Shown here: piece after piece, positions 2,633-61,256 of the stretch
Layout: the number at the start of each line of letters is the position of its first letter
Numbering within the stretch: position 1 is the first letter of the stretch
Origin: Actinoallomurus bryophytorum
Lineage (GTDB): Bacteria > Actinomycetota > Actinomycetes > Streptosporangiales > Streptosporangiaceae
DNA: 64,000 bases
Assembly (NCBI RefSeq): GCF_006716425.1
Contig: NZ_VFOZ01000003.1
Location: 186,001-250,000 of the forward strand
Reading direction: 5' to 3'
The notes under the pieces: generated by a model
Told to the model about the DNA's origin: nothing
Databases searched by the model: none
The model's input: only the letters and a program-made list of their open reading frames with translations
Program-made: the position numbers and the translations under genes

Positions 2633-2902
2633 TCATCCGTACACGATGCGCCGCAGCTGACGGAGCGAGAGCTCCGGAGGAGCGACCCGGCGCTGCGGCA
2701 GCTCGGCCGCGACGCGTTCGAAGATCTGGTCGTTGGTCAGTCCGCGCGCCTTCAGCTCCGCGTGCCGCCGCCGGACGAACTCCTCGGCCGGCTCGGCGAA
2801 GTACGCGAGCACGTCCGCGACCACCCGCGCGGCCTCGCCCGCGCTCAGCGAGGTGGTACGGCTGAGGTGGACGAGGAGATCGTCGTACACGCGGTCGGAC
2901 AT
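2633..2902 (-). CDS. Small conserved-looking protein, function unknown
   Basis: An 89-residue soluble, largely helical protein starting MSDRVYDDLLVHLS. I do not recognise a named family. The frame is open further upstream, but the extension would run through the hairpin at 2941-2968 and has an atypical composition, so the ATG at 2902 is preferred. The protein is rich in Glu/Arg/Ala, has no membrane segment, and ends QLRRIVYG. It lies 25 bp before glmS on the same strand and may be transcribed with it. Codon bias (G/C at third positions) supports real coding. Function is open. Confidence 0.6.
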   Translation of the reverse strand: MSDRVYDDLLVHLSRTTSLSAGEAARVVADVLAYFAEPAEEFVRRRHAELKARGLTNDQIFERVAAELPQRRVAPPELSLRQLRRIVYG

Positions 2903-2940
2903 GCGTTGTGATCCTGCCGGATTCTTGCCCCGAAAGCCAA

Positions 2941-2968
2941 GTTTCCTGCCCGGTATCGGGCAGGAAAC
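2941..2968. terminator. Perfect 12-bp inverted repeat, likely terminator of the SDR gene
   Basis: Arms GTTTCCTGCCCG and CGGGCAGGAAAC are exact complements around a GTAT loop. The hairpin lies between the SDR stop (2994) and the start of the small gene (2902), both on the minus strand. There is no strong U-tract, which is common for actinomycete terminators. It could also be an operator for the small gene-glmS unit. Confidence 0.6.
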
Positions 2969-2993
2969 AGGACTTAGGCCATACGATCTGCGG

Positions 2994-3752
2994 TCAGGCG
3001 GTCGCACCCCCGTCGACGGTCAGTTCGTGACCGACGACGAACGCCGACTCGGGCGAGGCCAGCCACAGGACCGCCGCCGCGACCTCCTCGGTCGCGCCGA
3101 TCCGCCCGGCCGGGATGCGTTCGCCGACGCGAGCCGCGACGTCGGCCTCGCTTTCCCCGGGGCGCATCGACATGGCGGTGGCGATCGGCCCGGGGCTGAC
3201 CACGTTGATCCGTACGCCCTCGGCGATGGCCTCACGCGCGGCCGCCTTGGAGAGCGCGACCACGCCCGCCTTGGTCGCGCCGTACGCGCCGATCCCCGGC
3301 ACCGCGGTGACCCCGATGGAGGCGGTGTTCACGATCACGCCGCCGCCGTTGGCCCGCATGTGCGCGAGTTCGTGCCTGAGCGACAGCCAGACCCCGGTCA
3401 GGTTGGTGCCGACCATCGCGTCCCAGGACGCCTCGTCGATGCCGGTGACCGGGCCACCGTGCAGGACGGCGGCGTTGTTGAACGCGATGTGCAGGCCACC
3501 GTGGCGTTCGACGGTCGTCGCCACGAGCCGGGCCACGTCCTCGGAGCGTGACACGTCGGCCGTCACGGCGCTCGCCGTCCCGCCCTCCTCCTCGATGAGC
3601 TTCACGGTCCGTGCCAGCGGTTCGGCGCCGCGCCCGGACACCACGACGGCGGCGCCCTCACGGGCGAACGCCAGCGCGGTGGCCTGGCCGATGCCGGAGC
3701 CGCCGCCGGTCACGAGCGCGACCTTTCCGGTGAAACGTGCGGTCATTGCCAT
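2994..3752 (-). CDS. SDR-family NAD(P)-dependent oxidoreductase
   Basis: A 252-residue classical short-chain dehydrogenase/reductase. The cofactor motif TGGGSGIG is at residues 15-22, NNA at 92-94, catalytic Ser near 145, and the YxxxK pair at Tyr157/Lys161. The C-terminal half carries the usual PGPI and VDGG motifs. The likely reaction is reversible oxidation of an alcohol or ketone, substrate unknown. A second Met (residue 3) is an equally good start. It lies 10 bp downstream of the MFS transporter gene on the same strand, so tetR-MFS-SDR may form one operon controlled by the TetR protein, with the hairpin at 2941-2968 ending it. Confidence 0.92.
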   Translation of the reverse strand: MAMTARFTGKVALVTGGGSGIGQATALAFAREGAAVVVSGRGAEPLARTVKLIEEEGGTASAVTADVSRSEDVARLVATTVERHGGLHIAFNNAAVLHGGPVTGIDEASWDAMVGTNLTGVWLSLRHELAHMRANGGGVIVNTASIGVTAVPGIGAYGATKAGVVALSKAAAREAIAEGVRINVVSPGPIATAMSMRPGESEADVAARVGERIPAGRIGATEEVAAAVLWLASPESAFVVGHELTVDGGATA

Positions 3753-3762
3753 CTCTCCTTGA

Positions 3763-5073
3763 TCATTTGGTGCCGCGCCGAAGCAGCGCGGTCAGTGCGG
3801 TGAGGACGAAGGCGATCGCGGCGGCCCGCAGCGCGAAGGCGTACCCGGCGGGGACGTCGCGTGAGTGGGCGGCGGCGAGCGAGGTCAGCAGAGTGAGGCC
3901 GGCCGGCGGCCCGATCTCCATGGCGGAGTTCAGCACCCCGCCGGCGAGCCCGGCCTGCTCGGCCGGGACGCCGTCCATGGCGGAGACCGTCGCGGCGGCG
4001 AACGTCGTCCCGGCCCCCAGCGAGAAGACGACCAGCCCGGCGTAGGGCAGGCCGAGGCGTGCGAGCAGGAACAGCCCGGCGGCGGTGACCACCAGCCCGG
4101 CGATCATGACGCGCCGGGCGCCGAGCCGGGCGATGAGCGGCCCGGCGAGTACGCCGGCGGCGGCGAGGGCCGGGGCGGGCAGGAGCAGGACCATCGAGGT
4201 CCGCAGCGGCGACAGTCCGCGTACCTGCTGGAGATAGAGGGCGAGCAGGTAGAACGCGGTCGCCATGGCCGCCGCGGTCAGCGCGGTGGCGATCAGTGGC
4301 AGGGCGCGGCCGCGTACGAAGGGCAGCGGGGTCAGCGGGACGGGGGAGTGGTGCTCCACCAGGCCGAACAGGACGAGGACAGCCAGGCCGATGGCGACCG
4401 CCCAGGCGGAGTGCCCCAGACCGTAGAGCAGCGCGCCGAGGCCGGCGGTCGCGAGGAACGCGCCCGGCCAGTCGATCCGGCCGCCGGACCGCGGAAGGCC
4501 CTCCGGCACCAGGCGCCGTGCCGCGGCGACGGTGACGATCGCGACGGCCAGCGGCAGCAGGAACAGCCATCGCCACGACATCCAGGTCGCCGCCACGCCG
4601 GACAGGACGTTCCCGGCCGTCGCCCCCGAACTGCTCAGCACCCCCCACACGGCCATCGCCCGGCCGTACCGGCGGCGGTCGGGAAGGACGTCGCCGACCA
4701 GCGCCATCGCGGCCGGCGCCGCCAGCGCCGCGCCGACGCCCTCGCCGAGGCGCGCCGCGAGCAGCACGCCGAGCCCCGGGGCCGCCGCCGCGACGGCCGA
4801 GGCGGCGCCGAACACGGTCATGCCGGCGATGAGCGCTCTGCGGGGGCCGAACAGGTCCGCGAGCCGTCCGCCGAGCAGCAGCAGGCCGCCGAAGGACAGG
4901 CCGTACGCGGAGGCGACGAGCACCAGGTCCGGCGGGTCCGCGCCCAGGTCGTGCTGGATCTGGGGCAGCGCGACGGTGATGAGGGTGATGCTCGCGATGA
5001 GCGTGACCTGGACGGTGCCGAGCAGGATGAGCGTCGCTCTTTCTAGACCGATCGTTCTGTTATCAGGGCGCAC
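3763..5073 (-). CDS. MFS transporter (drug-efflux type)
   Basis: A 436-residue polytopic membrane protein with 12 or more hydrophobic helices and the MFS loop motif GGRLADLFGPRR after helix 2, typical of drug/H+ antiporters. The start is the GTG at 5073, which has GAGGAGAAGG upstream. Upstream extension would overlap the tetR gene and has non-coding character. It follows tetR by 37 bp, so the two are probably co-transcribed. A TetR-type half-palindrome (GACCGATCGTTC, 5046-5057) sits inside its first codons. Substrate is unknown; export of a toxic compound sensed by the TetR protein is the natural inference. Confidence 0.9.
   Translation of the reverse strand: MRPDNRTIGLERATLILLGTVQVTLIASITLITVALPQIQHDLGADPPDLVLVASAYGLSFGGLLLLGGRLADLFGPRRALIAGMTVFGAASAVAAAAPGLGVLLAARLGEGVGAALAAPAAMALVGDVLPDRRRYGRAMAVWGVLSSSGATAGNVLSGVAATWMSWRWLFLLPLAVAIVTVAAARRLVPEGLPRSGGRIDWPGAFLATAGLGALLYGLGHSAWAVAIGLAVLVLFGLVEHHSPVPLTPLPFVRGRALPLIATALTAAAMATAFYLLALYLQQVRGLSPLRTSMVLLLPAPALAAAGVLAGPLIARLGARRVMIAGLVVTAAGLFLLARLGLPYAGLVVFSLGAGTTFAAATVSAMDGVPAEQAGLAGGVLNSAMEIGPPAGLTLLTSLAAAHSRDVPAGYAFALRAAAIAFVLTALTALLRRGTK
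5046..5057. promoter_or_regulatory. Second candidate TetR operator, inside start of MFS gene
   Basis: GACCGATCGTTC matches 11 of 12 bases of the perfect palindrome GACCGATCGGTC upstream of tetR (5716-5727). It lies at codons 6-9 of the MFS gene. Two near-identical palindromes 670 bp apart around the same regulator suggest cooperative binding or a block to elongation. This is inference from sequence similarity. Confidence 0.45.
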
Positions 5074-6937: not shown

Positions 6938-7834
6938 TCAGACCGTCCAGATCTCCGCGACGTACGCGGCGGCGTGCCGCACGAAGCGCGCGATGTCGGG
7001 AGAGGTCGCCGTGCTCGCCCATGCCACGTGGAGGCGGCTGCCGGACAGGCCCTCGGTGGGCACCGCGACGACGCCGGCGGGCGGGGAGTCGCCCACCAGC
7101 GACAGGGGAGCGAAGCCGATCGTGCGCGCCAGCCGCACGTTCGCGGTGAGCTGGCTCATGTCCTGGAGTGCCGGGCCGGGCCGCCAGTCGTGCGGGGCGA
7201 GGTCGGTGCCGGTCCAGTGGGCCGTCTCCGCCTCGGTGGTGCCGGGCCAGGTCGCGATGGTCTCCCCGGCGAGCTCGGCGCGGTCGATGACCGTACGCGA
7301 GGCGAGAGCGTGCCCGGCGGGCAGCAGGGCGACGCGCGGCTCGGTCCACAGCACGTCGCTGTCGAGCCCGCGGTCGTCGAACGGATGGCGCAGGAGCCCC
7401 ACGTCGACCTTGCCGTCGCGTAGCGCGTCGGTCTGCGCCTGCCAGTTGATGACGACGGCCTCCGCCGGCCGCTCTCCCGGATGGCTCGTATTGTAGGCAC
7501 GTACGAGGTGGTCCAGAGCCTCGATCTCGCAGCCGCGTGCGGTCACGCGCAGGCACGGGGCCTCCTGTTCGGCCCGTACCGCCCGCGTCACCGCGGCCCG
7601 TACGAGATCGTCCAGATCGCGTGCCTCGTCGAAGAGCACCCGCCCGGCCGCGGTCGGCCGTACGTCACGGTGGTCGCGGACGAGCAGCGGGACGCCGACG
7701 CTGTGCTCCAGCGCGCTGATCGCACGGGACAGCGCCGGCTGTGTCATGCCCAGCCGGCTCGCGGCCCGGGTGAAGTTGCGTTCCTCGGCCACCGCGACGA
7801 AGTAGCGCAGCTGCCGCAGGTCGATGTCGTTCAC
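6938..7834 (-). CDS. LysR-family transcriptional regulator
   Basis: A 298-residue LysR protein. The winged helix-turn-helix is at about residues 5-62 (LRQLRYFVAVAEERNFTRAA, MTQPALSRAISALE), followed by a two-lobe effector domain. The GTG at 7834 fits the family's usual start just before the first helix; the longer open frame upstream reads through the operator. It is divergent from the epimerase gene at 7959, and a 12-bp inverted repeat containing a T-N11-A LysR box lies between them, so control of that gene and of itself is likely. Confidence 0.93.
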   Translation of the reverse strand: MNDIDLRQLRYFVAVAEERNFTRAASRLGMTQPALSRAISALEHSVGVPLLVRDHRDVRPTAAGRVLFDEARDLDDLVRAAVTRAVRAEQEAPCLRVTARGCEIEALDHLVRAYNTSHPGERPAEAVVINWQAQTDALRDGKVDVGLLRHPFDDRGLDSDVLWTEPRVALLPAGHALASRTVIDRAELAGETIATWPGTTEAETAHWTGTDLAPHDWRPGPALQDMSQLTANVRLARTIGFAPLSLVGDSPPAGVVAVPTEGLSGSRLHVAWASTATSPDIARFVRHAAAYVAEIWTV

Positions 7835-7853
7835 CCCACCACCCTGGCACGGC

Positions 7854-7880
7854 GCACCCATGCCCTGCGGGCATGGGTGC
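7854..7880. promoter_or_regulatory. LysR-type operator (12-bp perfect inverted repeat)
   Basis: Arms GCACCCATGCCC and GGGCATGGGTGC are exact complements around TGC. The core TGCCCTGCGGGCA fits the LysR consensus T-N11-A with inner dyad symmetry. It lies in the 124-bp space between the divergent lysR gene and the epimerase gene. Confidence 0.7.
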
Positions 7881-7958
7881 ATGCCGAACAGGCTTTTCCC
7901 CTTTTCCACGGCCGTCGATCTACTGAGACCCACCTGGTCATTTAGCGAAAGGCATGTC

Positions 7959-8828
7959 GTGCGCGTTTTCATCACCGGTGCCGGCGGTTACGTCGGCGGT
8001 GTCGTCGCCTCCCGTCTGGTCACCGCTGGACACTCGGTCACCGGGCTGGCCCGTACGGAGGAGAGCGAGCGCCGGGTTCGCCGGTCGGGAGCCGGGGCCC
8101 GGCGGGGCGGACTCGAGGACGCGCGGCTCCTGCGGGAGGCCGCCGAGGGGGCGGACGTGGTGGTGCACGCCGCCGTCGACTACACCGATCCCGCCTTCGC
8201 GGCGCAGGAGGAGACGGCTCTCGGCGCGCTGCTCGACGGTGGCGGAGGTAAGCCGCTGATCTACACCAGCAGCACGCTCGTGCTCTCGGACACCGGACCT
8301 GAACCGGTCTCGGAGGACCGGGACGCCGCTGCGGAGACGCTCCAGCCGTTCAAGCGCCGCGGCGAGCAACGGGTGCTGGAGGCCGGGGGCACGGTCGTGC
8401 GGCTGGGCCTCGTCTACGGGCGGAACGGCTCCATGTTGCCGACGGCGCTGCTGTCCTCCGCCCGGACGGACGCTGTCGCCCGTTACGTCGGCAGCGGTGA
8501 GACGCGCTGGTCGGCGGTCCACGTCGACGATGCCGCCGACCTGTTCGCACGTGCCGTGGAGGCGCCCGCGTCCGCCGGGACGCTGGTGCACGCCGTGGAG
8601 GCCGGCGCCGCCTCCTTCCGGGAGATCGCCGAGGCGATCGGGCGCAACGCGGGGGTTCCGGCCGCCGCGATGACGCGGGAGGAGGCCGCCGGCGTGTTCG
8701 GCCCGCTGGCCGGGCAGCTCACGCGCAATCTCTGGGTGGTGCCCACACGGGCCGCCGAGCTCTACGGCTGGCATCCCGCGAGCAAGGGCGTCCTCCACGA
8801 TCTGGAGCACGGCTCCTACCGCGCGTGA
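7959..8828 (+). CDS. NAD-dependent epimerase/dehydratase-family (extended SDR) protein
   Basis: A 289-residue atypical/extended SDR with the N-terminal nucleotide-binding motif FITGAGGYVGG (GxxGxxG). Characteristic later segments are GADVVVHAA and a VHVDDAADLF motif seen in nucleoside-sugar epimerase-like proteins. The usual Tyr-x3-Lys pair is not obvious: the sequence after TSST runs without YxxxK, so it may be an NmrA-like or catalytically altered member. The GTG at 7959 has GAAAGG upstream. It is divergent from and probably controlled by the LysR protein. A strong terminator follows. Confidence 0.88.
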   Translation: MRVFITGAGGYVGGVVASRLVTAGHSVTGLARTEESERRVRRSGAGARRGGLEDARLLREAAEGADVVVHAAVDYTDPAFAAQEETALGALLDGGGGKPLIYTSSTLVLSDTGPEPVSEDRDAAAETLQPFKRRGEQRVLEAGGTVVRLGLVYGRNGSMLPTALLSSARTDAVARYVGSGETRWSAVHVDDAADLFARAVEAPASAGTLVHAVEAGAASFREIAEAIGRNAGVPAAAMTREEAAGVFGPLAGQLTRNLWVVPTRAAELYGWHPASKGVLHDLEHGSYRA

Positions 8829-51689: not shown

Positions 51690-52775
51690 TCAGCCCGGTC
51701 CGGGCAGGCGTTCGAGGGCGCGGGCCAGGTCGCGTGGGGTGACGATGCCGACGAGGCGCTCGCCCTCGAAGACGAGCAGCCGGCCGTGGGCCAGCTTGGG
51801 CACCAGGTCGGCCAGCGACGTCTGCGCGCCGGTGCGCTCGGCGTCCTCCACGACCGCGCCGATCGGTGCTCCGGGCTCCTGGCCGCGGATCCGCTCGGCG
51901 GTCACGATGCCGCGTACGACGCCGTCCTCGAGCAGGGGATAGGCGGTGTGGCGGTGGCGGGGGAGCATCTCGCGCAGGAACTCAGCCGCCGTCATCGAGC
52001 CGGGCACGGTGAACGGGTCGGGCGTCATGACCCGGCCGATCGTGATGCCGTCCAGGCGGGCCTGCACGCGTGCCTGGCCGGCCTCCAGGCTCGCGGCCGC
52101 GATCAGGAACCAGCCGATGAGGATCAGCCACAGGCCGCTGAAGGTCCACAGCGACAGGTAGAAGCCCGCCACCATCGCGATCCAGCCGAAGCCGCGGCCG
52201 GCCAGCGCGGTGCGCAGCGTCGCCTGCGTACGGTCGCCGGACAGGCGCCACAGCAGGGCATGGACGAGCCGGCCGCCGTCCAGCGGCGCCGCCGGGATGA
52301 CGTTGAACAGGGCGAGCACGACGTTGATCGCGGCCAGCCACGCGATGCAGCCGGCGACCATGCCGTTCATCCCTGCGACCAGGAGCACCGCCGACGCGCC
52401 GGCCAGCAGCATGCCCAGCAGTAGACTGACCAGCGGCCCCGAGCCCGCGATACGGAGTTCGGCGCCGGGGCTCTCCGGCTCGCCCTCGAACCTCGCCACG
52501 CCGCCCAGCAGCCACAAGGTGATGCCTTCGACGGTCAACCCGTTGCGCCGTGCGACGATGGCGTGCGCCAGCTCGTGCGCGAGCAGCGACGCGAGGAACG
52601 CCGCGGCGGTGAACAGCCCGCCGAGGATGTACATGACCGGGTGCAGTCCCTTGTAGGACTGCGGCAGGCGCTCGGCCCCCAGACCGTACGCGAGAAGGGT
52701 GAAGACGACGAGAACGGTCCAGTTGACGCCGACGCGCACGCCGACGATCCGGCCGAGCCGGAAGGTGTCGTTCAT
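51690..52775 (-). CDS. Site-2 (M50) metalloprotease with CBS domains (Rip3-like)
   Basis: A 361-residue intramembrane zinc protease. Six or so membrane segments surround the active site His67-Glu68-x2-His71 and the third ligand in N158-x2-P161-x4-D166 (NVIPAAPLDGG). The C-terminal ~130 residues hold two CBS domains (IGRVMTPDPFTV, LLVFEGERLVGIVTPRDL) that probably sense adenine nucleotides. This architecture is that of mycobacterial Rip3. It is divergent from the GHL10 lipoprotein gene; substrates are unknown (anti-sigma factors in related enzymes). Confidence 0.93.
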   Translation of the reverse strand: MNDTFRLGRIVGVRVGVNWTVLVVFTLLAYGLGAERLPQSYKGLHPVMYILGGLFTAAAFLASLLAHELAHAIVARRNGLTVEGITLWLLGGVARFEGEPESPGAELRIAGSGPLVSLLLGMLLAGASAVLLVAGMNGMVAGCIAWLAAINVVLALFNVIPAAPLDGGRLVHALLWRLSGDRTQATLRTALAGRGFGWIAMVAGFYLSLWTFSGLWLILIGWFLIAAASLEAGQARVQARLDGITIGRVMTPDPFTVPGSMTAAEFLREMLPRHRHTAYPLLEDGVVRGIVTAERIRGQEPGAPIGAVVEDAERTGAQTSLADLVPKLAHGRLLVFEGERLVGIVTPRDLARALERLPGPG

Positions 52776-52854
52776 CCGCCGCCGCCCTGTGAGAGTGCCT
52801 CTCCTGAACCGATACCCGGATGTGCGCCGGGACTCTCCGGCAGAATGCCATCTC

Positions 52855-54426
52855 ATGGGCGGGTCTCGGGGGCGAAGCACGGCCGTGGCGGCGATCGCTT
52901 TGATCGTCGCCGCCGGATGCGGGGGGTGCGCGGGCAGACACGACTCGCCGCCGGCGTCGGCCGCGGGCCTCCCGGCGGCCGAATGCGGCCAGACCGTTTC
53001 GGCGCACGCGACCACGCGGCGGACACGCGCGATGTGGATCACAACGGTCAACAACGGCGACTGGCCGAACAAGGCGGGCCTTCCCGCGGCCAAGCAGCAG
53101 GGGCAGTACCGCCACCTGCTCGACGTGGCGCAGAAGCTGAACTTCAACACCGTCTACGTCCAGATCCGCCCGGCCGCCGACGCGTTCTACCCCTCCCGTC
53201 TCGAGCCCTGGTCGCAGTACCTCACCGGAAAACAGGGCGGCGACCCGGGCTATGACCCGCTGCGTTTCCTCGTCGACGAGGCGCACAAGCGCGGGCTGGA
53301 GTTCCACGCCTGGTTCAACCCCTACCGGGCGAGCGCGCAGGCCGACCGGAACAGGCTCGCGCCGAACAGCCAGGCGCGGCTGCATCCGGACTGGGTGCAC
53401 CGCTACGGCGGCGCGCTGTGGTTCGACCCGGGGCTGCCGCAGGTACGCGACCTGGTCGGCAAGGTCGTCCTCGACGTCGTCAACCGCTATGACGTCGACG
53501 GCGTGCACCTGGACGACTACTTCTACCCCTATCCGCTACCGGGCCAGGCGTTCCCCGACAGCGCCACGTTCAAGAAGTACGGCAAGGGTTATGCGAACAT
53601 CGGCGACTGGCGGCGCCACAACGTCGACGCGCTCGTCCAGGGCCTGCACACCCAGATCCACCAGGCCAAGCCCGCGGTGCGTTTCGGCATCAGCCCGTTC
53701 GGGGTCTGGCGCAACAAGAGCAAGGACCCGGCCGGTTCGGCCACGGCCGCCCTGCAGAGCTACGACGACATCTACGCCGACAGCCGCAAGTGGGTGCGCA
53801 GCGGCTGGGTCGACTACATCGCGCCGCAGCTGTACTGGCCCGTCGGGTTCAAGGCCGCCGACTACCGGACCCTGGTGGCGTGGTGGTCCAAGCAGGTCGC
53901 GGGCACGCACGTCCAGCTCGTGATCGGGCAGGCGGCCTACCAGGTCGGGCAGCCCGGAGCCTGGAAGGACCCGGCCGAGCTGTCCCGCCACGTCGGGATC
54001 GACGCCAAGTACCCCCAGGTCGGCGGGGAGGCGTTCTTCAGCGCCCGCGACCTGGCCCAGGACCGGCACGGTTTCGCCTCACGGCTACTGCGCGACCACT
54101 ACTCCCGCCCGGCGCTGCCCCCCGTCGCGGCGAGCACCGGTTCCCCGCCCTCCGCCCCGGCCCATCTGAAGGCCAAGGACGGCGAACTGACCTGGAAGGG
54201 CTCGGGCGCGGCCGCGTACGCGATCTACCGCACCCCGGCGAAGGGACCGGCCTGCATCGCGCCCGACGGCCGGTTCCTCGTCAAGGTCGTCGGCGGCGAC
54301 GTGCACAAGACCTCCGACAAGACCGCCAAGCCGGCGCACTCCTACACCTACTACGTCACCGCCCTGGACCGGCAACACCGCGAGAGCCCCACCACCCACG
54401 GCGCGAACGTGACCAAGGGCCACTGA
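52855..54426 (+). CDS. GHL10-family (DUF187-like) glycoside hydrolase-like lipoprotein
   Basis: A 523-residue exported protein. The N-terminus has Arg residues, a hydrophobic stretch and a probable lipobox ending at Cys22 (VAAGC). Residues ~75-400 are the glycosyl hydrolase-like 10 barrel (MWITTVNNGDW, LNFNTVYVQIRPAADAFYPS, HAWFNPYRA, DVDGVHLDDYFYPYP, SPFGVWRN, PQLYWPVGF) and the last ~90 residues are an Fn3-like beta domain. Related proteins act on cell-wall or polysaccharide substrates; the substrate here is unknown. It is divergent from the M50 protease. Confidence 0.92.
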   Translation: MGGSRGRSTAVAAIALIVAAGCGGCAGRHDSPPASAAGLPAAECGQTVSAHATTRRTRAMWITTVNNGDWPNKAGLPAAKQQGQYRHLLDVAQKLNFNTVYVQIRPAADAFYPSRLEPWSQYLTGKQGGDPGYDPLRFLVDEAHKRGLEFHAWFNPYRASAQADRNRLAPNSQARLHPDWVHRYGGALWFDPGLPQVRDLVGKVVLDVVNRYDVDGVHLDDYFYPYPLPGQAFPDSATFKKYGKGYANIGDWRRHNVDALVQGLHTQIHQAKPAVRFGISPFGVWRNKSKDPAGSATAALQSYDDIYADSRKWVRSGWVDYIAPQLYWPVGFKAADYRTLVAWWSKQVAGTHVQLVIGQAAYQVGQPGAWKDPAELSRHVGIDAKYPQVGGEAFFSARDLAQDRHGFASRLLRDHYSRPALPPVAASTGSPPSAPAHLKAKDGELTWKGSGAAAYAIYRTPAKGPACIAPDGRFLVKVVGGDVHKTSDKTAKPAHSYTYYVTALDRQHRESPTTHGANVTKGH

Positions 54427-56525: not shown

Positions 56526-56547
56526 TTTGCTGCACACTGATGGCAAA
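56526..56547. promoter_or_regulatory. Candidate operator B (before the GntR-SBP gene)
   Basis: A 22-bp dyad beginning TTTGCTGCAC and ending TGGCAAA lies 23-44 bases before the ATG at 56570. It shares TTTGC, an inner CA, ATG and CAAA at the same spacing with the 22-bp dyad at 58081-58102 before the binding-protein gene, indicating a common regulator, most simply the GntR fusion itself. Confidence 0.6.
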
Positions 56548-56569
56548 ACCACGCCGACCGAGGACAGTC

Positions 56570-57997
56570 ATGGAGCCCGCGCCAACCCTTCCGGCGTACT
56601 ACCGGCTCAAGCGGCGTCTGCTCGCCGACATCGAGGCCGGGCACTACGGCACCGGCGGGAGGCTGCCGACCGAACACGAACTGTGCGCCGCGTACGGCCT
56701 GAGCCGCACGCCCGTGGCGCGGGCGCTGTCGGAGCTGGCGGCCGAGGGCGTCGTGGTGCGGCACCGGCGGCGCGGCACCTTCGTCGACCCCGGCTGGATG
56801 GCCGCGCTGCGGGCCGCCCCGCAGGTGTCGGTCATGGCCACCGACGGCCAGTGGGCCGGGCAGCTGCGCGAGGCGATGGGCAACGAGCTCCGGCTGAAGA
56901 TCACGACGGCGCCCTTGGGGGAGCTGCGGGCGATGTTCCGCCGCGCCATCGCCGAAGGACGCGGACCCGACTTCGCCATCGTCGACTCGGTCTGGGTGGC
57001 CGAGTTCGCCGAGTCGCACATGCTCACCCCGATCGGTGAGCTGGACCCCGCGTGGGCCGCCGAGCACGACGCCGACTTCGTCCCGCCGTTCGTGGACGCC
57101 TACCGCTTCGAGGGCCAGGGCGCCGTCGCCGTTCACGCGCCGGCCGACGTCACCGGCCTGTGGTACGACCGTGCGGCGCTGGGGGAGACCCCGGCGCCGC
57201 ACACCTGGCGCGACCTGCGCGCCCTCGGCCGTACGCTCGCGGCGGGCACCTCGCGTGACCGCCACGCGCTGGTGCTGCCCGGCGGCCCGGCGGCGGGGGA
57301 GACCGCGACGTACGCGCTGGTGGCACTGCTGGTCGCGAACGGCGCGACCGTGTTCACCCCCGACGCGGTGACCCTCGACGGTCCCGCCGCCGTCGAGACG
57401 CTGAGGTTCCTGCGGCGCCTCGTGGACGACGGGGTGCTGCCGGCCGAGGTGGTCACCTACGACAAGGACCGCTCCGCGCGGATGCTCGCCGCCGGCCGCG
57501 CCGCGATGTTCGTCGGCGCCAGCTACCAGGCCGAGACGCTCGCCGAGGAGACCGGCACTCCGCTGGCGAACGTCTCCGAACGGTTCGGGTTCGTGCCGAT
57601 CCCGGCCGGGCCGCACGGGCCGCCCGGAATCCTGTGCGGGGGGATGGTCTACTGCGTGCCGCGGCAGGCCCGCCATCCCGAGCTGGCGATGCGGCTGCTG
57701 CGCGCGGCGACCGCGCCAAGGTGGCTGGCCGAGGTCTGCAGCGAGACCGGCCAGCTGCCGCCCCGCCGCAGCGTGATCGACGCCCTCGCGCCGGTCTCGC
57801 CGTTCCACGCCGAGACGGCGGCGCTGCTCGAACACGCCGTCGTGCGGCCCGCCGCGCCGGCCTACGCCCTGGTGTCGGCGCAGCTGCAGACCATGCTGGA
57901 GGGCGTGCTGACCCGCAGGTGGAGTCCGTCGGCCGCGGTGACGCTGACCGCCGACCGGATCAGCGCGATCACCGGCCGTCCCATCGTGCGCTCCTGA
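56570..57997 (+). CDS. GntR DNA-binding domain fused to a solute-binding-protein domain (one-component sugar regulator)
   Basis: A 475-residue two-domain protein. Residues 1-75 are a GntR winged helix (YYRLKRRLLADIEAGHYGTGG, LPTEHELCAAYGLSRTPVARALSELAAEGVV). Residues ~85-475 have the family 1 extracellular solute-binding fold (DFAIVDSVWVAEFAESHMLTP, ADVTGLWYDRAALGE, AAMFVGASYQAETLA) but no signal peptide or lipobox, so the whole protein stays in the cytoplasm. It replaces the usual UTRA or LacI-type ligand domain. GAGG precedes the ATG. It lies directly before the importer operon and the paired dyads suggest that it represses itself and the operon until sugar binds. Confidence 0.88.
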   Translation: MEPAPTLPAYYRLKRRLLADIEAGHYGTGGRLPTEHELCAAYGLSRTPVARALSELAAEGVVVRHRRRGTFVDPGWMAALRAAPQVSVMATDGQWAGQLREAMGNELRLKITTAPLGELRAMFRRAIAEGRGPDFAIVDSVWVAEFAESHMLTPIGELDPAWAAEHDADFVPPFVDAYRFEGQGAVAVHAPADVTGLWYDRAALGETPAPHTWRDLRALGRTLAAGTSRDRHALVLPGGPAAGETATYALVALLVANGATVFTPDAVTLDGPAAVETLRFLRRLVDDGVLPAEVVTYDKDRSARMLAAGRAAMFVGASYQAETLAEETGTPLANVSERFGFVPIPAGPHGPPGILCGGMVYCVPRQARHPELAMRLLRAATAPRWLAEVCSETGQLPPRRSVIDALAPVSPFHAETAALLEHAVVRPAAPAYALVSAQLQTMLEGVLTRRWSPSAAVTLTADRISAITGRPIVRS

Positions 57998-58053
57998 CAC
58001 GCGAGGCACACGTACCCCGGAAGTAAGGCATTCGTCACCTCTGCCGCTACGTC

Positions 58054-58082
58054 TTGACGCCGTTCGCCCGCCCTTCCACATT
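58054..58082 (+). promoter_or_regulatory. Promoter of the sugar importer operon
   Basis: TTGACG (58054-58059), 17 bases, CACATT (58077-58082), directly followed by and overlapping the dyad at 58081-58102, which would cover the transcription start point. It lies about 40 bases before the binding-protein ATG. Confidence 0.6.
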
Positions 58083-58102
58083 TGCCACAACGCAATGCCA
58101 AA
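58081..58102. promoter_or_regulatory. Candidate operator A (sugar importer operon)
   Basis: A 22-bp imperfect palindrome beginning TTTGCCAC and ending ATGCCAAA; with one flanking base on each side it reads ATTTG...CAAAT. The match to the dyad before the GntR-SBP gene supports one regulator for both. Confidence 0.6.
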
Positions 58103-58120
58103 TTCGCGGAGGTGCTGCGC

Positions 58121-59470
58121 ATGCGGCGGCAATGGGCTCTCGTGATGACAGCGGTGACGCTCGCGGCGGGGTTGAGCGCCTGCGGTGACAGCGGATCCTC
58201 GGACGGCAAGACGATCAAGGTCGCGTACCAGAAGTTCGGGAACTTCATCGGTGCCGACGAGCTCTTCAAGAAGATCAAGCCGGTCTTCGAACAGCAGAAC
58301 CCCGGGGTGAAGCTCAAGCTCATCCCGGTGGAGGCCGACGAGAACTCCTACTACACCAAGCTCGGCCTGATGCGGCGCTCGAAGGCCACCGCGCCGGACG
58401 TCGCCTACGAGGACACCTTCTTCGTCAACTCCGACGCCCAGGCCAAGTTCCTCATGCCCCTGGACTCCAAGCTGAGCGCCTGGTCGGACTGGGGCCAGTT
58501 CGTCGACGCGGCCAAGGCGGCCGGCAAGGCCGGCGACGGCCACACCTACGGCGTGCCGATGGGCACCGACACCCGCGGCCTCTGGTACAACAAAAAGATC
58601 TTCGCCAAGGCGGGCCTGCCCGCCGACTGGCAGCCCAAGAGCTGGAACGACGTCCTCACCGCGGCGCGCCAGATCAAGGCCAAGGTCCCCGGCGTCATCC
58701 CGCTCAACGTCTACGCCGGCAAGGGCGTCGGCGAGGCGTCGGCGATGCAGGGCTTCGAGATGCTGCTGTACGGCACGGCGAACAAGCTCTACAACGACCA
58801 GACGAAGAAGTGGGTCGCGCCGAGCCGTGGCATGAACGACTCGATGAACCTCCTCAAGACGATCTTCTCCGAGAAGCTGGGCCCGACGCCGCAGCAGGCG
58901 CTCGACGCGCACTGGAGCGACAACGTCCAGGGCCAGGAACTGCCGGAGGGCAAGCTGGCCATCGACCTGGACGGCTCGTGGCTGCCCCAGGCGTGGATCC
59001 CCGGCGGCGCCTCGGCCTGGCCCGAGTGGTCCAAGACGCTCGGCACCACGCCGATGCCCACCCAGAACGGGCAGGCGCCCGGCAAGGTGTCGCTGTCGGG
59101 CGGCTGGCTGCTGTCGGTCGGCGCCAACACCAAGAACCCCGACGCCGCGTGGAAGCTCGTCCAGCTGGCCATGAACAAGGAGAACGCCCTGTTCTTCTAC
59201 CTCAAGGCCACGCAGGTCTCGGTACGTAACGACGTCACCAGCGAACCGGCCTACCTGCAGGGCAACCCGACGCAGAAGTTCTGGACCGACCTGGTGTCGG
59301 TGACCCAGTACCGGCCCGCCTACAGCGTCTATCCGCAGATCTCCAACCAGCTCCAGGCGGCCACCGAGTCCGTGGTCACGGGCCAGGCCGCACCGGAGAA
59401 GGCCACCAACGACCTGGCCGGCCAGATCAAACGGCTCGCCGGACCGGACAAGGTCGAAGGGGCTCCCTGA
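58121..59470 (+). CDS. ABC sugar transporter solute-binding lipoprotein
   Basis: A 449-residue family 1 solute-binding protein. The signal peptide MRRQWALVMTAVTLAAGLSAC ends at a lipobox LSAC with Cys21. The mature part has PDVAYEDTFFVNSDAQAKFL, YGVPMGTDTRGLWYNKKIF and a C-terminal region with YSVYPQISNQ. GGAGG lies nine bases before the ATG. It captures a sugar or oligosaccharide outside the membrane and delivers it to the two permeases. Its last codon overlaps the permease ATG by one base. Confidence 0.94.
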   Translation: MRRQWALVMTAVTLAAGLSACGDSGSSDGKTIKVAYQKFGNFIGADELFKKIKPVFEQQNPGVKLKLIPVEADENSYYTKLGLMRRSKATAPDVAYEDTFFVNSDAQAKFLMPLDSKLSAWSDWGQFVDAAKAAGKAGDGHTYGVPMGTDTRGLWYNKKIFAKAGLPADWQPKSWNDVLTAARQIKAKVPGVIPLNVYAGKGVGEASAMQGFEMLLYGTANKLYNDQTKKWVAPSRGMNDSMNLLKTIFSEKLGPTPQQALDAHWSDNVQGQELPEGKLAIDLDGSWLPQAWIPGGASAWPEWSKTLGTTPMPTQNGQAPGKVSLSGGWLLSVGANTKNPDAAWKLVQLAMNKENALFFYLKATQVSVRNDVTSEPAYLQGNPTQKFWTDLVSVTQYRPAYSVYPQISNQLQAATESVVTGQAAPEKATNDLAGQIKRLAGPDKVEGAP

Positions 59471-60396
59471 TGGTCGCGGTGGGCCTCCCGGAGCCCACCC
59501 GCGCCGCCGCCCGCCGCCCGCGCAACGTGCGCGGGCGGCGGGCGGCCGGCCGGATCCTGCCGCTGGTGCCCGCCCTGGCCCTGCTGGCGCTGTTCTTCCT
59601 CGGCCCGATCCTGTGGTGCGTCTACGCGTCCTTCACCGACGTCGCCCTGACCGGCGCCACCGCGAGCACGCCGCACCTGGTGGGGCTGCGCAACTACCGG
59701 CAGATGCTCCACGACCCGCAGTTCCGCCAGTCGCTGTGGCTGACCGTGGTGTTCGTCCTCGGCTCCGCGGTGATCGGCCAGAACGTCGGCGGCATGGTCC
59801 TGGCGCTGCTGATGAAGTCGCGCCGCCGCATCGCCCGCGCCGTCGTCGGCGCGATCGTGGTCGGCGCGTGGGTGACGCCGGAGCTGGTCGCGGGGTTCGT
59901 CTGGTACGCGTTCCTGTCCGATGACGGCACCCTCAACGCGATCCTGCACGCCGTGGGCCTGCACGGAAAGAGCTGGCTGTACGCCACGCCGCTGCTGGCG
60001 GTGACCCTGGCCAACATCTGGCGCGGCACCGCGTTCTCCATGCTCGTCTACTCCGCGGCGCTGTCGAACGTGCCCGACGATCTGCTGGAGGCCGCCGCGG
60101 TCGACGGCGCCTCGGCCTTCGCCCGGCTGCGGCACATCACCCTGCCGCTCATGCGCCGGGCGGTCATGACCAACCTGATGACGATCACGCTGCAGACCCT
60201 GGCGGTGTTCACCCTGATCTTCGTGATGACCGGCGGCGGGCCCGGGACCAAGACCCAGACGCTGCCGGTCTACATGTACCAGTCGGCGTTCAAGTTCTAC
60301 CAGCTCGGGTACGGCGCCGCGCTGGCCATCGTGCTGCTCGCCGTCGGTGGCGTCTTCTCCGTCGTCTACCTGCGGATGATGCGGGAGGACGTATGA
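59470..60396 (+). CDS. ABC sugar transporter permease (MalF/UgpA type)
   Basis: A 308-residue permease with six membrane segments. The EAA loop is EAAAVDGASAFARLRHITLPLM, where the ATPase docks; the first helix PALALLALFFLGPILWCVYASF is typical of the MalF-like class. It overlaps the binding-protein stop (TGATG) and the next permease start (ATGA), so the three are strictly coupled. Because no ATPase gene follows, a shared MsiK-like ATPase elsewhere is expected, as in Streptomyces sugar importers. Confidence 0.94.
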   Translation: MVAVGLPEPTRAAARRPRNVRGRRAAGRILPLVPALALLALFFLGPILWCVYASFTDVALTGATASTPHLVGLRNYRQMLHDPQFRQSLWLTVVFVLGSAVIGQNVGGMVLALLMKSRRRIARAVVGAIVVGAWVTPELVAGFVWYAFLSDDGTLNAILHAVGLHGKSWLYATPLLAVTLANIWRGTAFSMLVYSAALSNVPDDLLEAAAVDGASAFARLRHITLPLMRRAVMTNLMTITLQTLAVFTLIFVMTGGGPGTKTQTLPVYMYQSAFKFYQLGYGAALAIVLLAVGGVFSVVYLRMMREDV

Positions 60397-61256
60397 CGAC
60401 GGCCACCCGCAGCGCGCCGCGCCTGTCCACGACGGCCCCGCGCCGCCGTAGCGCCGCGGCGGCCGCCTACCTCGTGCTCGGGCTGATCGCGCTGGCGTTC
60501 CTGGTCCCGTTCGCGTGGCTGTTCCTGTCCTCGGTCTCCGAACACGCGACTCTGGACACCTCGGTCCCGGACCACCTGACGTTGCGCAACTTCGCCGACG
60601 TGCTCACCGGCGACAACCTGCACGCGCTGGTCAACAGCCTGGTGCTGTCGCTCGGGTCGGCCGTGCTGACCCTGGTGCTCGCGGCGCCGGCCGCCTACCC
60701 GCTGTCGCGCTACACCCGAAGGTTCGGCCGTCCGATCCTCCTCATCCTGCTGTTCGCGACCGGCCTGCCCATCACCGCGATCCTCGTCCCGGTGTACGGG
60801 CTGTTCGTCCAGCTCGACCTGCTCGACTCCATCCCCGCGACGATCCTGTTCCTCACCGCGACCGGGCTGCCGATGGCGATCTGGCTGATGAAGAACTTCA
60901 TGGACGAGGTGCCGATCTCCCTGGAGGAGGCGGCCTGGGTGGACGGCGCCTCCGGCCTGCGGGCGCTGCTGCGGATCGTTCTGCCGCTCATGCTGCCCGG
61001 CACCGCGGTGGTCTTCACGTTCACGTTCGCGCTGACGTGGGGGAACTTCTTCGTGCCGTTCATCCTGCTGGTCGACCCCGCCAAGCAGCCGGCCTCGGTC
61101 GTCATCTTCCAGTACTTCGGCCTGCACGGGACGGCCTCCTACGGCCTGCTGGCCGCCTTCTCGATCCTGTACTCGATGCCCGTGGTCGTCCTGTACACGG
61201 TGGTCCAGCGTGTGCTCGGAAACGCCTTCGCGCTGTCCGGAGCCGTCAAGGGCTGA
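60393..61256 (+). CDS. ABC sugar transporter permease (MalG/UgpE type)
   Basis: A 287-residue permease with six membrane segments and the EAA loop EEAAWVDGASGLRALLRIVLPLM. WLFLSSVSEHATLDTSVP matches the MalG-like start, and MAIWLMKNFMDEVP precedes the EAA loop as usual. It starts in the last four bases of the preceding gene (ATGA). It is the last gene of the importer operon. Confidence 0.94.
   Translation: MTTATRSAPRLSTTAPRRRSAAAAAYLVLGLIALAFLVPFAWLFLSSVSEHATLDTSVPDHLTLRNFADVLTGDNLHALVNSLVLSLGSAVLTLVLAAPAAYPLSRYTRRFGRPILLILLFATGLPITAILVPVYGLFVQLDLLDSIPATILFLTATGLPMAIWLMKNFMDEVPISLEEAAWVDGASGLRALLRIVLPLMLPGTAVVFTFTFALTWGNFFVPFILLVDPAKQPASVVIFQYFGLHGTASYGLLAAFSILYSMPVVVLYTVVQRVLGNAFALSGAVKG

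Follow-up and report, generated by a model that had tools for sequence, protein, structure and literature searches.

A probable GntR regulator with a solute-binding sensor domain beside a sugar importer in Actinoallomurus bryophytorum

A fusion gene and the importer operon beside it

We analysed 64,000 nucleotides of the Actinoallomurus bryophytorum genome (contig NZ_VFOZ01000003.1, positions 186,001 to 250,000; hereafter the window, whose numbering we use), in which a gene that joins a GntR winged helix to a solute-binding protein (SBP) domain stands before the operon of a sugar importer. The fusion gene (56570..57997, + strand; 475 amino acids) is recognized by its Pfam domains, a predicted model and full-length orthologues. 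A Pfam scan places GntR (PF00392; E = 3e-20, 71.9 bits against a cut-off of 27) at residues 10–72 (56597..56785, + strand), a winged helix of the HutC/YvoA type that matches YvoA and DasR, and SBP_bac_1 (PF01547; E = 2e-25) at residues 109–384. After residue 100, SBP families are the sole Pfam matches, and the C-terminal part matches SBP_bac_1 and SBP_bac_8. The frame begins with the winged helix and the solute-binding domain starts straight after it, which leaves no space for a signal peptide; none is present, and the protein is neither secreted nor lipid-anchored.

Among solved structures, sequence comparison related the C-terminal part to MalE3, SmoF, TMBP and GacH, and the winged helix to YvoA and DasR. 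An AlphaFold2 model built on an alignment of 34 fusions (mean predicted local distance difference test score (pLDDT) 91.2, predicted template modelling score (pTM) 0.86) has, after the GntR domain, a complete two-lobe mixed alpha/beta SBP fold of the SBP_bac_1 type. This domain (model residues 83–470; 56816..57979, + strand), which also holds conserved pocket-region residues, matches MalE3 of Thermotoga maritima (6dtr) with a Z score of 41.7 and a root mean square deviation of 2.9 over 372 aligned residues, and a Foldseek comparison with 6dtq gave E = 3.5e-25 and a template modelling (TM) score of 0.81 by target length. No UTRA domain was matched in the fusion by Pfam at E 0.1, and the NCBIfam HutC model covers the winged helix only. 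The Pfam scan returned no all-helical FCD/FadR C-terminal domain, in place of which an alpha/beta SBP fold is predicted, and no LacI/GalR-type effector domain in the C-terminal part. The protein is a GntR winged helix joined in one frame to a complete cytoplasmic family 1 solute-binding fold. A preliminary description of the locus had claimed just this architecture, without a signal peptide, and had named structure prediction as a check; the predicted fold bears it out.

Downstream, positions 58121–61256 hold a CUT1-type gene set by Pfam. It comprises a secreted solute-binding lipoprotein with the lipoprotein signal LSAC (58121..59470, + strand) and two BPD_transp_1 permeases, the first of which (59470..60396, + strand) overlaps the SBP stop by 1 base pair (bp) at its start, whereas the second (60393..61256, + strand) shares an ATGA overlap with the first. 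No ATPase gene follows the permeases in the importer operon. The genome holds many UgpC/MsiK-like ATPases, one of which (C1:2550970) has no adjoining permease and is consistent with a shared MsiK-type ATPase that would be paired with this importer. The secreted lipoprotein, the two permeases and the expectation of a shared ATPase had all been part of the preliminary description.

Full-length orthologues of the fusion were found in 7 of the 8 genomes from the genus, 11 of 251 from the family, 3 of 395 from the class and 4 of 198 from the phylum; the window's own genome is counted each time. Scanning GTDB genomes yielded 34 fusion loci (L027–L060; a contig end truncates L042, and L060 diverges most), with members in Actinoallomurus, Actinomadura, Nonomuraea, Phytoactinopolyspora, Arthrobacter, Acidimicrobiia, Solirubrobacterales, Anaerolineae, Spirochaetes and Acetothermia. 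The fusion thus recurs in at least four phyla (Actinomycetota, Chloroflexota, Spirochaetota and Bipolaricaulota), so that the search among other actinomycetes that had been suggested found it there and beyond. Two more fusions were found in Chloroflexota, and a score gap separates fusions (at least 510 bits) from ordinary SBPs (at most 169 bits). The single fused frame is kept in 33 aligned homologues, with identities from 31 to 92%. Judging from this distribution, the GntR–SBP family is old, rare and patchy. Permease genes occur in 23 of the 34 fusion loci and in none of 45 control GntR loci, which were taken from other taxa.

One Acetothermia genome carries two different GntR–SBP fusions (L123, G808:C79; L058, G808:C65), one of which is followed by its own SBP and permeases. 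Acetothermia locus L108 was considered as a secreted relative and rejected, as it is a second fusion.

Putative operators and promoters

Similar 22-bp dyads, to which no strand is assigned, lie before both transcription units, as the preliminary description had noted. Putative operator 1 (TTTGCTGCACACTGATGGCAAA, 56526..56547) stands 22 bp upstream of the fusion ATG, and putative operator 2 (TTTGCCACAACGCAATGCCAAA, 58081..58102) overlaps the -10/+1 region of the candidate importer promoter. At up to one mismatch, TTTGC-N12-GCAAA has two sites in the window against 0.20 expected, a number that none of 100 shuffles reached. The extended palindrome has one site at one mismatch and three at two mismatches in the 9.47-megabase genome, and both dyads are among these four; sites at three mismatches are no commoner than for a control pattern. 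Another of the four, C1:6184661 (two mismatches), adjoins a phosphotransferase-like gene with no visible link and was taken as a chance match. The position of operator 1 makes autoregulation of the fusion gene probable, and the link to the importer through a shared putative operator is well supported by these counts and by the relatives.

Operator 1 is identical in L027, L028 and L032. Its place is taken by perfect palindromes (TTTGTCGTCTGTGGACGACAAA) in L029 and L030 and by an imperfect one (TTTGTCGCTGGCGGACGACAAA) in L055; these three loci, from other species of the genus, carry before the SBP gene the importer site TTTGCCACAGCACAGTGGCAAA, whose 8-bp half-sites match perfectly. Outside the genus, related palindromes occur in matching places in Actinomadura alba (L031, TTTGTCATCGCCTGATGGCAAA) and Nonomuraea (L033, TTTGCCATCGTGGGATGGCAAA), before the SBP gene in Arthrobacter (L044, TTTGTCACTACGCAGTGACAAA) and between the divergent fusion and glucosylglycerate-hydrolase-like genes of L126 (TTTGTCACAAAGACATGACAAA). 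In many relatives, palindromes of the type TTTGYCAY-N6-RTGRCAAA recur in front of genes for transporters, hydrolases or the fusion. At up to two mismatches, TTTGCCAY-N6-RTGGCAAA has 13 sites in 413 kilobases (kb) of fusion loci and none in 593 kb of control GntR loci; the looser core TTTGYC-N10-GRCAAA, at up to one mismatch, has a site in 16 of 42 fusion loci against 4 of 45 control loci. The conserved bases of this palindrome lie far from its centre, as do those of YtrA operators (PMC4494728).

The importer promoter has a candidate -35 element, TTGACG (58054..58059, + strand), which lies 27 bp upstream of dyad 2 and is conserved in all seven Actinoallomurus-group loci. The corresponding -10, CACATT (58077–58082, + strand), matches poorly, which is why a generic sigma-70 scan flagged no importer promoter in the window. 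The earlier placement of the second dyad on a predicted start point is therefore upheld by the conserved TTGACG and not by the generic scan. In the window genus, L044 and L126, TTGAC(G/A) stands 26–28 bp before the operator, whose start falls within the -10 or on its border. The arrangement is TTGAC(G/A)-N16-18 followed by an operator either on the -10, as in these loci, or just after it, as in L031 and L127. The spirochaete locus L056 has TTGACA-N17-TATAAT with an operator-like sequence 8 bp later, and L031 and L127 are similar. Operators on the -10/+1 of TTGAC promoters are, on comparison of these sequences, a repressor geometry, in which the bound protein would block initiation.

The sensor domain and the transport receptors

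We compared binding pockets by sequence alignment. Four pocket-region residues are kept in nearly all fusions (D139 in 35 of 35, E244 in 34, Y319 in 33 and R399 in 32), and all four are also kept in a secreted homologue in the spirochaete locus L056. The sensor of the window's fusion and the SBP of the adjoining operon (58121) are only 20–22% identical, and at pocket-region positions 319 and 359 the fusion has tyrosine and methionine where the SBP has tryptophan at both. The pocket comparison that had been proposed thus finds the two not close; the operon's SBP, which is also distant in the tree, was rejected as the source of the sensor. Across lineages the fusion stays while its partner SBP changes, the partners falling into several unrelated groups.

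In L056, the secreted SBP (2762–4084) shares 54% identity with the sensor of its neighbouring fusion (6974–8473) and roughly 35% with the sensors of the other fusions. With the closest ordinary SBPs taken as outgroup, all fusions and this secreted SBP fall into one fully supported group of the tree. Within it the secreted protein is the sister of the adjacent fusion (support 94/86) and is thus nested among the fusions; a fusion-only clade that leaves it out was not rejected (approximately unbiased test, p-AU 0.066). This placement suggests that in L056 the sensor domain of a regulator may have been re-exported as a transport receptor.

The sensor therefore appears to be related to importer receptors and not to the SBP of this importer. 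The preliminary description had proposed that the transporter's own type of receptor was recruited as a cytoplasmic sensor, an idea that fails for the SBP of this operon and holds at the level of the family, through the L056 protein. That the same sugar is sensed inside and captured outside is plausible. More tentatively, the GntR–SBP proteins may constitute a GntR subfamily of their own, so far undescribed, with sensor and importer receptor exchangeable, the L056 sensor having apparently been re-exported, and receptor modules may pass in either direction between sensing in the cytoplasm and capture outside the cell.

Probable ligand, proposed mode of control and known systems

Genes beside the fusions of relatives bear on the ligand. 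A GH38 alpha-mannosidase is encoded in the loci of three Actinoallomurus species (L029, L030 and L055), in Actinomadura alba (L031), in another family member and in the spirochaete L056, and L036 holds a GH125 alpha-mannosidase. L044 encodes a glucosylglycerate hydrolase (675 bits against an NCBI curated cut-off of 550) together with a glycerate kinase and an ATPase. In L125 and L126 the fusion is divergent from genes for a hydrolase, an SBP, two permeases and an ATPase, with a glycerate kinase in L125. L037 encodes an MGH1-like hydrolase, beside which stand a ROK kinase and a protein that in one region resembles mannose-6-phosphate isomerase; MGH1-like hydrolases are present elsewhere in the window's genome. 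The neighbours of the fusions point to an alpha-mannoside, or to a glycoside of the mannosyl- or glucosyl-glycerate type, as the likeliest effector.

We consider it likely that the fusion is a one-component, sugar-responsive repressor of its own gene and of the importer, acting through the 22-bp palindromes. We infer that the GntR winged helix would bind, probably as a dimer, the palindrome before its own gene and that before the SBP–permease operon, and would there block RNA polymerase at the -10/+1 region. Closure of the cytoplasmic SBP half on an imported glycoside would shift the paired winged helices out of alignment and release the operators, and the importer would be produced once its substrate, or a closely related compound, is present in the cell. 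A separate MsiK-like ATPase would supply ATP hydrolysis to the importer.

Several observations weigh against this model. A recognizable operator is absent from several fusion loci (L034–L037, L041, L049, L051 and L054), which implies that the motif has diverged there or that these regulators have other targets. In the control loci, too, the looser core is matched perfectly twice; most of these loci belong to other phyla or to different families of actinobacteria. GH38 is absent from the window's own genome and the window operon contains no enzyme, so the proposed ligand is read from relatives. The low identity between the sensor and the operon's SBP counts on the same side.

The alternative that survives best is that the fusion mainly controls catabolic or compatible-solute genes (alpha-mannosidase, glucosylglycerate hydrolase or glycosyltransferase), the importer being secondary and exchangeable and not necessarily carrying the effector. 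Such a role would fit the swapping of unrelated partner SBPs between lineages, the position of the site beside the hydrolase gene in L039, L040 and L126, and the glycosyltransferase and unknown gene that take the place beside the fusion in L041 and L046. We hold it to be somewhat unlikely, however, as the two best-supported operators of the window's genome flank the regulator and the importer. GntR proteins include activators, and the fusion could instead need its ligand to bind or activate at the same dyads, the importer then being induced by the ligand-bound protein; this is quite improbable given that in several separate lineages the operator covers the -10/+1 region and does not lie upstream of the -35. 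Very improbable, in our view, is an SBP domain that binds no ligand and serves only for dimerization or as a scaffold, with regulation answering something else. In its favour, the tryptophans that stack on the sugar in solved alpha-glycoside receptors are, in the alignment, absent near positions 317 and 359; against it, acidic and arginine residues of the pocket region are nearly invariant in 35 fusions and are shared with a presumably functional secreted receptor. An annotation or assembly artefact joining two genes has practically no chance, since dozens of separate assemblies, drawn from several phyla, contain the same fused frame.

By its winged helix, the proposed repressor is most similar to HutC, YvoA and DasR of the HutC subfamily (HutC, YvoA/NagR, DasR and Escherichia coli MngR), but it has a solute-binding fold where that subfamily has a UTRA (chorismate-lyase-like) effector domain. 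MngR controls mannosylglycerate use. SgrR of E. coli also combines a cytoplasmic DNA-binding domain with an SBP-type ligand domain; it differs from the fusion in having a winged helix of another family and a domain of the SBP_bac_5 type, and in not adjoining a CUT1 importer. MalE3, TMBP, GacH and SmoF resemble the sensor in having the complete fold (Z about 39–42, 20–25% identity); they are secreted receptors without a DNA-binding domain, whereas the fusion carries one.

GntR regulators have been divided by their C-terminal domains into the FadR, HutC, MocR, YtrA, AraR and PlmA subfamilies (PMC4494728), none of which has a type II solute-binding domain. AraR likewise joins a GntR winged helix to a periplasmic-binding-protein-like sugar sensor and controls sugar uptake and use (PMC4494728), but its sensor is of the GalR/LacI type, a type I fold, whereas that of the fusion has the type II fold of an importer family (SBP_bac_1). 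Btr/YbbB of Bacillus, an AraC-family regulator with a FeuA-like substrate-binding domain, adjoins feuA (PMC3896406). Both it and, as proposed here, the fusion are one-component regulators that sense with a domain of the type their importer uses as its SBP, but Btr/YbbB pairs an AraC DNA-binding domain with a siderophore-type SBP of another fold class and ligand. Searches of an open-access library of papers returned no GntR–SBP regulator, an absence that is no proof. One-component regulators with SBP-type sensors are thus known in principle, and a cross-phylum family that joins GntR to SBP_bac_1 and has an operator appears to be new.

If this reading is true, the fusion adds a further class of effector domain to the GntR family beyond the six of PMC4494728, and it allows one binding fold to be compared as cytoplasmic sensor and as extracellular receptor within one locus. 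The operator and promoter layout makes the model directly testable, with glycosylglycerates or alpha-mannosides as the ligands to which the neighbours point. The design, a DNA-binding domain with a full SBP, could serve as a template for sugar biosensors.

Some neighbouring genes are of interest in their own right. The protein with the isomerase-like region (L037:4049-5731, also in L050) has 560 amino acids and no Pfam match, and its residues 217–426 resemble mannose-6-phosphate isomerase. A protein of about 620 amino acids (L041:3836-5704, - strand; also in L046 and L047) adjoins a glycosyltransferase resembling mannosylglucosylglycerate synthase and the fusion; it has no Pfam, NCBIfam or PDB match. 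In the window's genome, an MGH1-like (glucosylglycerate/mannosylglycerate-hydrolase-like) gene (G000:C1:361594-362736) lies about 6 kb from a UgpC-type ATPase gene (368832-369896), and the two are possibly part of a separate glycosylglycerate locus without the operator. Upstream of the fusion, the window contains an open reading frame for a 575-amino-acid lipoprotein (52699-54426), whose N-terminal sequence KTTRTVQLTPTRT also occurs upstream of the fusion in L027, L028 and L032; synteny is thus kept with part of the genus.

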